Shown here one piece after another: positions 8,015 through 12,276 of a stretch of DNA of 64,000 bases (the first letter of the stretch is position 1; every line of letters starts with the position of its first letter). The stretch is from Aureispira sp. CCB-QB1. GTDB taxonomy: Bacteria > Bacteroidota > Bacteroidia > Chitinophagales > Saprospiraceae. The notes beneath the pieces were generated by a model. The model had not been told where the DNA came from. It saw only the letters and a program-made list of their open reading frames with translations, and did no database searches. Position numbers and translations under genes: made by a program. Location of the stretch: NCBI GenBank assembly GCA_945870185.1, contig CAMBRK010000005.1, forward strand, positions 1 through 64,000. Reading direction: 5' to 3'.

Positions 8015-9082
8015 TTAGCAACCAAAATTTTCTTTGGACACGATGAGCTTATCCCCTGCGATCAGTACTCTGAAGGACATATTATTTTCAGAAAGCGGTA
8101 TCGTGAGTATATTTTTCCAAGTGACACCTTGATCTTCAGATTTCATGAGAGCGTTTTTGGTGGTGTAATAGCAGTTTTCTTGTTGAAAAAATACATTTTG
8201 AACATTGCTTTGCGCTTTCAAATGATGCGCCATAGGATGATTTTTCCATGTTTTTCCATTATCTTCTGAATATATAAGGCCAAAACCGGTATCAGTAAGC
8301 ATCATACCGTTTTCAACGTTTCTCTTTAAGATAAATAATTTATCTTCTTTTTCAAACAGTCGGATGACGTTGCTATCATGACTGTGCCAATCTAGCAAGG
8401 TTTGAATATTAGTCACTTTGGACCAAGTTTTTCCATGATCATTTGACTGATGGACACCATTAATACCTACAATCCATAAAGTTTCATTATGAAAAATGAT
8501 ATTATTGGCATAGCCTAAAGCGAAAACCCTATCCCAGGTTTTGCATTGATCCATCGTTTTATATACTCCATATTGACAAGCCAGATAAATATTTCCTTGA
8601 GTATCTTCTGTCATTTTGCTGATTCCATGGATACCTTCGGGGATAAAGGTGGGTTGCCAAAGTTTACTACCGGATTCCTTTCTGAATAATCCTTCACCAT
8701 AGACATGCGTGTAATGTCCTGATGATAAAGTAAATATTTCAGAAACCCAGTTTTCCTTGACCGGATTTTTATTAATTACAGCAGTCATGACATTTTCGCT
8801 CGATGCCATTTTAAGTGCTGCTAAATCTATATTTTGTATGATGCCATTTTCACTTCCCATAGATAAGGTTTCTCCCTCGGCAAAAAGGGACATGATATTC
8901 ATATCTTTAGAAATGTAGGAATCCAAAGATGTCCAAGTATTGCCCTGATCATTTGACAACAACAGTTTTCCAGTAAAGTCTATAGGTTTTGTATTTCCTT
9001 GATTGGTATCAGACTCCTTACTGACAGAACTACAATTGACAAAGAGCATAATCGATAATAATAAAAGATTTAATGTTTTCAT
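8015..9082 (-). CDS. BNR/YCF48-like beta-propeller lipoprotein
   Basis: Exported lipoprotein: signal peptide with lipobox ending at Cys17 (LFVNC). The body contains repeated Asp-box (BNR) motifs of the form S-D/E-D-x-G-x-T-W (SNDQGNTW, SNDHGKTW, SEDNGKTW, SEDQGVTW), the mark of sialidase-like or photosystem-assembly-like propellers. No sialidase catalytic residues were recognised, so it is probably a binding or scaffold protein. It begins 40 bases after the WD40 gene stop, with no promoter consensus in the gap, so it is likely the second gene of that operon. The operator at 10147-10173 would then control it as well. Confidence 0.78.
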   Translation of the reverse strand: MKTLNLLLLSIMLFVNCSSVSKESDTNQGNTKPIDFTGKLLLSNDQGNTWTSLDSYISKDMNIMSLFAEGETLSMGSENGIIQNIDLAALKMASSENVMTAVINKNPVKENWVSEIFTLSSGHYTHVYGEGLFRKESGSKLWQPTFIPEGIHGISKMTEDTQGNIYLACQYGVYKTMDQCKTWDRVFALGYANNIIFHNETLWIVGINGVHQSNDHGKTWSKVTNIQTLLDWHSHDSNVIRLFEKEDKLFILKRNVENGMMLTDTGFGLIYSEDNGKTWKNHPMAHHLKAQSNVQNVFFQQENCYYTTKNALMKSEDQGVTWKNILTIPLSENNMSFRVLIAGDKLIVSKENFGC

Positions 9083-9122: not shown

Positions 9123-10082
9123 TCAAATACTCAGTATGTTTCGTGCTTTATTGTCCCAAATGCTGATCTGTTGCTGAATAGAAGATGTTATTATTTTCTT
9201 TGATCTAGGACTCCAAGACAAGCCCCACAAGTAGTCGGGAGATGTACCTACATGTCTTAAGGTGCCTGTACGATCCCATATGCGGAGGGCATCACTTGCA
9301 GTGGCCAATCTGTCACCTCTTTTATTCCAAACCATATTTCTATATTCACCTTTGCTGATATCCAAACTTTTGATTAGTTCACCATTTTGATCCCAATATT
9401 GGAGTAATGATTTGTCTTTAGATGCTCCATAATCTCCGGTCACAAATGTGTCCCCTGAAGGATGCCAAGCAACACTAAGAATTAAAACATCCTCAGGCCT
9501 ATGTTTTATGGTTTTTATTAAAAGTCCTTGGGTATTGAACAGCCTTATTTTATCACCTACGGTTACAATAATGTCTTTGGATGGGTGCCAGTCCAATCCT
9601 GTAATACTTTTAGTATTTTCGTGGTGAAATGTTCTGATTAATTTTCCATTGATATCAAATATAGATATCTTCCCATCATTATCACCAATTACTAAATATT
9701 GGCCACTTTCGTCCCAATCCATACCTCTTGCACCATCCGTAGAAACGCCTTCCAATTCGATTTTTGTGTCTGTATCGATATTAAGTATAGAAGACTTGTC
9801 AAGTGAATTTTGTGAAGTAATAGCTAAAACATTTTTATTGGGATGCCATTTTACGCGCGTTATTGTACTTTTGAAAGGGACTCTTTTAAAAATTTTCATA
9901 CTTTCACTATGATAAATCACTAAAGTATCTGTATTCCCTGCTATTGCTATATATTTCCCATTTGGACTCCAATCTGCGGTCCACAGGATTTTTTTGTCAT
10001 TCGCGTTTTGAGAATGCAGTGTATTAGGTATTGATATTATCAAATACATGAGTATAAGAGAAGCACTGAATTTCGGTCTCAT
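9123..10082 (-). CDS. Secreted WD40-repeat beta-propeller protein
   Basis: The repeated pattern x-W-h-P-x-G/K-x-h-h-x-h-G/S-D (for example WSPNGKYIAIAGN, WHPSKDIIVTVGD, WHPSGDTFVTGD, WSPRSKKIITSS) gives about seven WD40 blades. The chosen ATG at 10082 starts a good Sec signal peptide (MRPKFSASLILMYLIISI, cleavage near LHSQN). An upstream in-frame ATG at 10127 lies on the far side of the minus-7 box (10108-10115) and would not be transcribed from it. WD40 domains are protein-interaction platforms, and an exported one in a bacterium has no assigned role. It leads an operon with the BNR lipoprotein. Confidence 0.8.
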   Translation of the reverse strand: MRPKFSASLILMYLIISIPNTLHSQNANDKKILWTADWSPNGKYIAIAGNTDTLVIYHSESMKIFKRVPFKSTITRVKWHPNKNVLAITSQNSLDKSSILNIDTDTKIELEGVSTDGARGMDWDESGQYLVIGDNDGKISIFDINGKLIRTFHHENTKSITGLDWHPSKDIIVTVGDKIRLFNTQGLLIKTIKHRPEDVLILSVAWHPSGDTFVTGDYGASKDKSLLQYWDQNGELIKSLDISKGEYRNMVWNKRGDRLATASDALRIWDRTGTLRHVGTSPDYLWGLSWSPRSKKIITSSIQQQISIWDNKARNILSI

Positions 10083-10107: not shown

Positions 10108-10173
10108 CAAATGTAACGTATGCGCACACTCCTTTTATCGAAATTTTGGTAACTTTTTAGTAATTATTGGTAA
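10108..10173 (-). promoter_or_regulatory. Promoter with triple TGGTAA operator (site A) for the WD40/BNR operon
   Basis: Minus-7 box TACATTTG on the minus strand at 10108-10115 (fits TAnnTTTG), with no TTTG minus-33 at the usual distance. Thirty-one bases further upstream are three direct repeats read on the plus strand: TGGTAA at 10147, TAGTAA at 10158 and TGGTAA at 10168. The 11 and 10 base steps are one helical turn each, as expected for OmpR-type winged-helix proteins binding in tandem. Site B near 11388 has the same architecture. Confidence 0.7.
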
Positions 10174-10243
10174 AATACAGGATTTACTTTAATCTATTTT
10201 TTGATGACTTCTATTTCTATCCTTAAAGTACTCAATCATATCG

Positions 10244-11329
10244 CTAATAAATTCTGTCAAAAGTTTCACCATTGAAAAGTTGTATACCATTGGACCCTCC
10301 ACCAAACCACAATTGACCTGCTTTGCTATTGTAAATAATCCAAGTCATGTCACCATCTAGCCCATCTTTTTTGGTAAAGTTTTTCATAGTATGTCCATCA
10401 TAGCGCCACACACCTGACTCAACCGTTCCAAACCAAATATTGCCCAACTTGTCTTCACAAATGGAGAAAACTCTGTCCAAAGAGCTAGTTTTGATAAGAT
10501 CTTTTCTTAAATGATGTTGCTTGGTAAAATGGATGAATTCTTTACCATCATATCTAAATACTCCTATACCTCCTACTGTATTATTACCACAATTATTGCC
10601 AATCCATAAATTACCTTTGCTATCTTCCATTAAGGATCGAATATGCAAAGATTCTGTTGTACCATTTAATCCTAATTTGGCATTATCAAAAATTTCAAAT
10701 TGCTTACCGTCATATGCAATCAACGCACTATAAGTTCCAAACCATACCTTTCCATTTTTACTTCTTATAAAAGGTGTAGAAATGGAGAAGGCATTTTCTT
10801 GCCCTGGTTTTAACTCAATTGGAAATGTGCGATAAAAAAGATCTTGCCCGTCAAATTGGTAGACTCCTGGACTCTTTTCAAGCTTGTTGTTTCCAACTGT
10901 TTCATCGCCTTTAAACCACAAGTCAGTATCGCTAAAGCCCTTTTTATCTACTACATTATAATTTCTTTCTTTGTAAACTGTCATATTTTGTCCATCATAA
11001 GTACTTAATCCAATGCCACACTCAAACCAAATGGTTCCATTTTTATCTTCATAAATACTCCTTACTTGATTGTCACTTAACCCATTTTCTGTTGTGAAAT
11101 ATCTGAGTGCACCATTTTGAAGCAAACACAATCCTTCGTTGTAACTACCAAACCAAATATTTCCTTTACTATCCTCTAAAATGGAACGAACTCCATTCGT
11201 ATATTTCAATAGTGGACTTTCAATTTTCGTACTAACCATTTGATTTACTCTATTTGATTGATTTTGACTGCGGCAGGACAAAGTTGAAACTATCAAAAAT
11301 GTGCAGCAAATGATAAATGTGTTTTGCAT
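10244..11329 (-). CDS. Two-component-regulator-type propeller (Reg_prop) lipoprotein
   Basis: Lipoprotein with a signal peptide and lipobox ending at Cys19 (VSTLSC). It then carries Reg_prop blades: repeats of the form I-x-E-D-x-x-G-x-h-W-F-G (ILEDSKGNIWFGSYNEG, IYEDKNGTIWFECGIG, LMEDSKGNLWIGNN, ICEDKLGNIWFGTVESG). These form the periplasmic sensor propellers of hybrid two-component systems, but here the propeller ends without histidine kinase or DNA-binding domains, so it is a free-standing propeller. The ATG at 11329 is used; a longer form would need a TTG at 11350 inside the minus-7 box. It is transcribed divergently from the winged-helix regulator. Confidence 0.8.
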   Translation of the reverse strand: MQNTFIICCTFLIVSTLSCRSQNQSNRVNQMVSTKIESPLLKYTNGVRSILEDSKGNIWFGSYNEGLCLLQNGALRYFTTENGLSDNQVRSIYEDKNGTIWFECGIGLSTYDGQNMTVYKERNYNVVDKKGFSDTDLWFKGDETVGNNKLEKSPGVYQFDGQDLFYRTFPIELKPGQENAFSISTPFIRSKNGKVWFGTYSALIAYDGKQFEIFDNAKLGLNGTTESLHIRSLMEDSKGNLWIGNNCGNNTVGGIGVFRYDGKEFIHFTKQHHLRKDLIKTSSLDRVFSICEDKLGNIWFGTVESGVWRYDGHTMKNFTKKDGLDGDMTWIIYNSKAGQLWFGGGSNGIQLFNGETFDRIY

Positions 11330-11347
11330 ATCTAAATTAATTATTTG

Positions 11348-11414
11348 CAAATGTAAACTTTAAGTTAAGTCCAATTACGTACATATTTGGTAATTTTTTG
11401 GTAAATATTGGTAA
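11348..11414 (-). promoter_or_regulatory. Promoter with triple TGGTAA operator (site B), shared divergent region
   Basis: Minus-7 box TACATTTG on the minus strand at 11348-11355, just upstream of the Reg_prop start. Three exact TGGTAA direct repeats (plus strand) begin at 11388, 11399 and 11409, with 11 and 10 base steps identical to site A. The gap from minus-7 to operator is 32 bases, against 31 at site A. On the other side a TAATTTTG box (11443-11450) precedes the winged-helix gene, so the site may serve both genes. Activation is inferred from position and the weak minus-33. Confidence 0.72.
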
Positions 11415-11454
11415 AACGTACCATTTTCATTATAGATTCAGGTAATTTTGCAGC

Positions 11455-12276
11455 ATGAAAATCACAAATATAGTTTTTGTTTGCCTGATCTTTGTTTCAA
11501 ATCTATCTTTTGGAGCAGATACTAAGGAACTCCATGTGGTGCTCAGACAAATTGGTCACAGATTGCTGCTATCAAGTGGTGATTCGACTTCTCGAGTACT
11601 TCCTGTAGAAAATATAGATGGAAATAAGTATATCATTTCTTTTGAGAAACCGATATACATTACTTCAGATTCATTGTACAATATAACATCTCTGGAGCTA
11701 GGAAAAATAGGTATCAGGGATTTTGTAACTGAACTTAAGGCTTGTGAAACTGAAGAAGTCTATTTGTCTTTTTTGTATAGTCAATCACTGGATAGCATTA
11801 CACCATGTGGAGGCAGGAACTTGCCAAAAGGTTGTTACAAACTTGAAATTACAATGCTAAAAAACAACCAAAGTTATTGGTTGTGGCTATTGCTACCTTT
11901 AACATTAGGTTCCTTATTTTATTTTTACAAACAACGAAGCAAAATAGTTGAACCTTTAGAAATTTCAAATAAAGAATTATTGGACTTAGGAAGTTACAAA
12001 TTTGATATCCTAAACCGGCAGCTGCTTCATATCAGCCACAAAGAATCCCTGACGGAGAAGGAAGCCAAACTTCTGACCCTACTTTTAAATGGTATGAATG
12101 AAGTCCAAAACAGAGACTATCTCATGCACGAATTGTGGGCCGAAAGTGGTATCATGGTAGTGCCCAAAAATCTGGACGTCCTAGTCTCCAAACTTAGAAA
12201 GAAGCTTAGTTTGGATGATAATATCAAAATCATCAATATACACGGTTTGGGATACAAACTGGAAGTTGTACAATAA
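11455..12276 (+). CDS. Membrane-spanning winged-helix transcriptional regulator
   Basis: One-component regulator. It has a signal sequence (1-20), a periplasmic domain (about 21-138) with cysteines at 97, 118 and 127 and a distinctive CGGRNLPKGCYKL stretch, one membrane helix (about 141-158) and a cytoplasmic OmpR/PhoB-type winged helix (about 178-273: LTEKEAKLLTLLL, LVSKLRKKL, IHGLGYKL). The order is the reverse of ToxR/CadC, where the DNA-binding domain is N-terminal. It would sense an envelope signal and bind tandem direct repeats such as the TGGTAA sites beside it. It is divergent from the Reg_prop lipoprotein gene and probably also autoregulated. The ligand is unknown. Confidence 0.8.
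   Translation: MKITNIVFVCLIFVSNLSFGADTKELHVVLRQIGHRLLLSSGDSTSRVLPVENIDGNKYIISFEKPIYITSDSLYNITSLELGKIGIRDFVTELKACETEEVYLSFLYSQSLDSITPCGGRNLPKGCYKLEITMLKNNQSYWLWLLLPLTLGSLFYFYKQRSKIVEPLEISNKELLDLGSYKFDILNRQLLHISHKESLTEKEAKLLTLLLNGMNEVQNRDYLMHELWAESGIMVVPKNLDVLVSKLRKKLSLDDNIKIINIHGLGYKLEVVQ

Follow-up and report, generated by a model that had tools for sequence, protein, structure and literature searches.

Triple GTAA-core repeats before exported propeller genes of Aureispira as the probable operator of a membrane-anchored winged-helix regulator

Introduction

The response regulators of the PhoB/OmpR type, such as SaeR, carry an N-terminal phosphoacceptor receiver domain together with a DNA-binding domain of family PF00486, and their operators are direct repeats arranged head to tail about one helical turn (10-11 bp) apart. 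ToxR and CadC combine a cytoplasmic N-terminal winged helix, one transmembrane helix and a periplasmic sensor, and have no phosphorylation domain. In Bacteroides, the hybrid two-component systems (HTCS) contain Reg_prop propellers in the periplasm. Here we analysed a stretch of 64,000 nucleotides (the window, positions 1 to 64,000 of contig CAMBRK010000005.1, assembly GCA_945870185.1) of Aureispira sp. CCB-QB1, a member of the Saprospiraceae, in which two triple direct repeats, operators A and B, lie next to genes of exported propeller proteins and to the gene of a membrane-anchored winged-helix regulator. Our results indicate with good confidence that these repeats serve as the operator of the one-component regulator encoded next to them, which would activate the propeller genes and its own gene.

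The regulator resembles ToxR and CadC in having a winged helix, one predicted transmembrane helix, a periplasmic sensor and no phosphorylation domain, but its topology is reversed, with the signal peptide and sensor at the N-terminus and the winged helix at the C-terminus, and its sensor is unrelated to any solved structure. Judged by this C-terminal position of the DNA-binding domain, it is not a ToxR member. It shares PF00486 and the head-to-tail repeats with the PhoB/OmpR response regulators, yet it stands outside that group because it lacks the receiver domain and is anchored in the membrane; its operator also differs, as it consists of three repeats in phase, set at a constant spacing from the TAnnTTTG promoter box of Bacteroidota. 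By analogy, the regulator may work like ToxR or CadC on an OmpR-type tandem operator. As in the HTCS, a Reg_prop propeller of the envelope appears tied to transcription control, but here the exported Reg_prop lipoprotein is a protein of its own whose gene is a predicted target, and no kinase is part of the regulator. The window protein has both the sensor signature and the GTAA triple in its own promoter that characterize a new family, the Bacteroidota winged-helix regulators of type-I topology. The original prediction knew of no comparable system, and a full-text literature search, with most subscription journals outside its coverage, turned up no paper describing either this family of regulators or its operator; the design is, however, a trait of a phylum-wide family and not unique to this spot.

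Results

Operator A (10147..10173, no strand assigned), supported by the sequence and by genome scans, reads TGGTAA-N5-TAGTAA-N4-TGGTAA with units at 10147 (TGGTAA), 10158 (TAGTAA) and 10168 (TGGTAA), and operator B (11388..11414), common to two divergent promoters and kept in the sister species genome G003, reads TGGTAA-N5-TGGTAA-N4-TGGTAA with TGGTAA at 11388, 11399 and 11409. The units follow each other in steps of 11 and then 10 bp at both sites, and the same minus-strand box, TACATTTG, lies at 10115-10108 for site A and at 11355-11348 for site B, separated from the repeats by 31 and 32 bp, respectively. The direct coordinate check thus agreed in every position with the original prediction, which had described the triple repeats, the 11/10 steps, the gap of 31-32 bases and the identical box. 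With up to three mismatches allowed, the triple was found in the 64-kb window at A and B only, where 0.11 matches were expected.

The draft genome of this strain (G000, 4.9 Mb) was scanned by pattern and family searches. The plain triple with zero or one mismatch occurred at A and B only, while at two to three mismatches the number of matches equalled that of the reversed control; these latter matches were rejected as noise because they did not exceed the control and had no -7 box at the right distance, except for one on contig C81. The composite pattern, i.e., the triple repeat plus the -7 box at 30-33 bp, was found in exactly three places of the 4.9-Mb genome (A, B and C81) against zero for the reversed control. 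Eight simulated 4.9-Mb genomes did not contain it, nor did any of 298 further genomes from the same order (a sample without G003). The third site, on C81, is upstream of the gene of a 389-amino-acid (aa) Reg_prop lipoprotein, and all three sites stand before propeller genes. This genome scan with its list of downstream genes upholds the propeller targets of the mini-regulon of three propellers proposed earlier, but enlarges it by the C81 locus. No operator was found at the other small Reg_prop lipoprotein genes on contigs C33, C23 and C29 of this genome and on C23 of G003, whereas the one on C52 of G003 has it.

Among ten genomes of the genus, the composite was present only in this genome and in G003, and the same two genomes contain the close regulator orthologs (56% identity between them; elsewhere in the genus, full-length matches reach 32% at most). 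The first site of G003 lies between the regulator gene and a divergent BNR lipoprotein gene, which is the ortholog of the BNR gene in the window (32% identity). The second site, on C52, has TTACCC units and a 30-bp gap and lies upstream of a Reg_prop lipoprotein gene whose product shares 54% identity with the C81 Reg_prop lipoprotein. The sites of G003 thus stand at orthologous BNR and Reg_prop genes, which indicates that the predicted regulon is conserved between the two species despite the rearranged gene neighbourhood.

With a profile search we found 80 named relatives of the regulator across Bacteroidota; members of the family occur in Chitinophaga, Flavobacterium, Chryseobacterium, Mucilaginibacter, Pedobacter and Saprospiraceae. 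The family set of 110 distinct members was picked by similarity and its members are not phylogenetically independent; a triple was scored when three exact GTAA cores with 9-12 bp steps were located within 200 bp upstream of the regulator gene. Such a triple was found in the own promoter of 77/110 members, as compared to a mean of 0.19 and a maximum of 2 in shuffled sequences, and at 0/19 soluble response-regulator genes used as a control. Upstream of the family genes, GTAA pairs 9-12 and 21 bp apart were enriched about 50-150-fold, with about 150-fold for the 21-bp distance. The units of relatives in the branch of the window lie at -65/-55/-44 from the ATG and those of the window at -65/-54/-44. 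Most relatives have TGTAAA as the repeat and the window has TGGTAA, the common core being GTAA, and the divergent partner promoters of the relatives have three TTTACA units followed by TAnnTTTG at 31-32 bp. Some members (L070-L074) carry four phased repeats (steps of 10, 11 and 11) instead of three. In the Chitinophaga/Flavobacterium/Mucilaginibacter branch (L079-L149), the steps are 12/9 and not 10/11, and the units are located at -41/-29/-20 from the ATG.

The base in front of the GTAA core follows residue 238 in the recognition helix of the regulator. Where the regulator has Arg238 and a triple was scored, this base is always T in two or all three units; in the two Lys238 orthologs, from the window and G003, it is G in all three; and in L075, the only other Lys238 member, the bases are C/G/C/G. 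L075 is far from the window lineage in the tree, therefore the pairing of Lys238 with a base other than T arose at least twice. This covariation is the strongest in-silico evidence and argues that the regulator itself binds the repeats.

The regulator gene (11455..12276, plus strand) encodes a signal peptide or anchor, a sensor at aa 22-138, a transmembrane helix at about aa 139-162 and a PhoB/OmpR-type winged helix at about aa 171-271. The C-terminal winged helix matched PF00486 (Pfam E 6.9e-14, residues 198-269), and the best fold matches of the DNA-binding part in Foldseek were CadC (5ju7), SaeR and ToxR (8b4b). PF00486 was found in 12/12 regulator family members and a receiver domain in 0/12. 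Hydropathy in 44 members predicts one transmembrane helix linking the periplasmic sensor to the DNA-binding domain, and the structure model places it at 139-162. The sensor domain (11518..11868, plus strand; 117 aa) gave a confident model with a predicted local distance difference test score (pLDDT) of 92 and a predicted template modelling score (pTM) of 0.87. Its signature is RxxGH...GDSTSRVLP plus three cysteines, and the window protein has R31, G34, H35 and the near-invariant Cys97, Cys118 and Cys127, whose columns are filled in 43/44, 44/44 and 42/44 members. No significant relative of the sensor was found in Pfam, NCBIfam and PDB by sequence or in a fold search of solved structures; by its sequence and model, the putative periplasmic sensor is a new domain. 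PADLOC returned only a weak WD40 match, which was judged meaningless.

The promoters were placed according to a flavobacterium in which TAnnTTTG spans -12 to -5 (PMC9723704). With this spacing, the -7 box TACATTTG at 11348..11355 (minus strand) gives a predicted +1 at about 11343 and a 14-nt leader for the Reg_prop gene, and that at 10108..10115 (minus strand) gives a predicted +1 at about 10103 and a 21-nt leader for the WD40-BNR operon. The regulator gene has TAATTTTG at 11443..11450 (plus strand), 4 nt before its ATG, so the predicted +1 is 11455, the A of the ATG, and its mRNA is predicted to be leaderless; a TAnnTTTG-type box 3-5 nt before the ATG was found in 40/110 family members. Site B is assigned to the gene of a 361-aa Reg_prop propeller lipoprotein (10244..11329, minus strand). 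Site A is assigned to an operon of two minus-strand genes, the first for a WD40 propeller protein with a signal peptide (9123..10082) and the second for a BNR propeller lipoprotein ending in -Gly-Cys (-FGC; 8015..9082). The WD40 gene must start at the ATG at 10082 and not at the GTG at 10127 of the longest open reading frame, because this GTG is upstream of the gene's own promoter box. The operator units lie at -45 to -71 from the predicted start of the Reg_prop gene, at -44 to -70 from that of the WD40 gene and at -41 to -67 from that of the regulator gene, and the spacers of site A, C81 and both G003 sites have no TTG at -33. The earlier assignment of A to the WD40-BNR operon, and of B to the Reg_prop gene and probably the divergent regulator, is in line with site placement and conservation, the control itself being predicted. 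Elsewhere in the window, positions 792-1796 encode a predicted RNA ligase that carries an OB-fold domain of the PHA02142 type, whose Pfam family is apparently named after a viral protein.

The exported neighbours of the family regulators include BNR and Reg_prop propellers, YceI, TonB_C-like and small unknown proteins. In one divergent partner (L098, 2248-3816) Reg_prop repeats are fused to a YceI domain, both of which occur separately as partners elsewhere. The upstream neighbour had a C-terminal cysteine at 41/75 loci, as compared to 1/73 downstream neighbours and 9/451 other open reading frames (about 2%). In an enlarged set, the upstream neighbour ended in Cys at 56/105 loci, almost always as -Gly-Cys (L058, L070, L081 and L091 among them). 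A joint loss of sensor cysteines and of the partner's C-terminal cysteine was weakly supported (4/4 vs 45/101; Fisher p 0.04, uncorrected for phylogeny).

Discussion

The sites very probably mark, as read from the DNA, where a membrane-embedded regulator turns on genes for exported proteins. Three winged-helix domains would line up along the same face of the DNA in a tandem head-to-tail array, with one GTAA-core repeat bound by each. Site B would lie between two divergent sigma-A promoters at nearly equal distance from both starts, and the regulator bound there would contact RNA polymerase and activate the Reg_prop gene as well as its own leaderless gene, while sites A and C81 would extend this control to the WD40-BNR operon and to the gene of a second Reg_prop lipoprotein. 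The positions of the units relative to both divergent predicted starts suggest activation by a regulator that has its own gene among its targets, and spacers without the -33 TTG are what is expected for activator-dependent promoters; from these two features we infer activation and positive autoregulation. Some observations weigh against this reading. The strict pattern left 33/110 members without an exact triple, in part owing to regulators encoded as the second gene of an operon, wrongly called starts or degenerate units, and the covariation between recognition helix and operator rests on two evolutionary events. Furthermore, in the Chitinophaga/Flavobacterium branch with 12/9 steps the units and the likely core promoter overlap, a placement that would fit repression in this branch, whose operator may act differently, perhaps in autorepression. 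The same arrangement could be taken to mean that the regulator is a repressor in general, which blocks the divergent promoters until a signal frees them; this is unlikely, as the units of the window and its close relatives are upstream of the core promoter, with a helical phase that is constant for the two promoters, and a -33 element is missing from most spacers.

It was also considered that the repeats are bound by some other response regulator of the OmpR/PhoB type, which merely has the gene of the membrane protein among its targets. Response regulators of this type do bind such repeats, e.g., SaeR on GTTAA-N6-GTTAA (PMC5083920), and other winged-helix genes exist in the genome, but the operator tracks the membrane regulator family across the phylum, is absent at the soluble winged-helix genes and was not found in genus members without a close regulator ortholog, and its variable base changes with the recognition helix of the membrane protein, so that another binder is quite improbable. 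The family-wide operator and this covariation support the earlier proposal that the adjacent winged-helix protein would bind the sites. That the repeats are only phased A/T tracts which bend DNA, or UP elements, with no dedicated protein, would fit AT-rich sites with a phase of about 10.5 bp upstream of promoters. However, the conserved GTAA includes a G, the C52 site of G003 has GGGTAA, the steps vary (10/11, 11/10 and 12/9) while the core is constant, and only three places in the genome have the element; we regard this explanation as very improbable. A chance likeness of two AT-rich intergenic sequences can be dismissed almost entirely: the third site and the G003 sites refute it, nothing speaks for it after testing, and the low expectation in the window, the empty simulated and other genomes and the 77 family triples all stand against it.

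The periplasmic three-cysteine domain would sense a signal from the envelope or from outside the cell, which might be the state of the exported partner proteins. The Gly-Cys tails together with the three sensor cysteines suggest tail sensing or a redox link. A more specific and rather doubtful proposal is a phylum-wide module in which the partner (a propeller, TonB_C-like or small protein) would be made from the divergent promoter with the shared operator, and the sensor would directly read its Gly-Cys tail, e.g., through a mixed disulfide, in a feedback loop dependent on redox state or export.

Knowledge of transcription control in environmental Bacteroidota is sparse, and the exported propellers of these bacteria are mostly without known function. 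With the activating, membrane-anchored regulator as the preferred explanation, an uncharacterised family of membrane transcription factors gains a predicted DNA code, predicted targets, a promoter geometry and a specificity residue that covaries with the operator. Each of these is directly testable.
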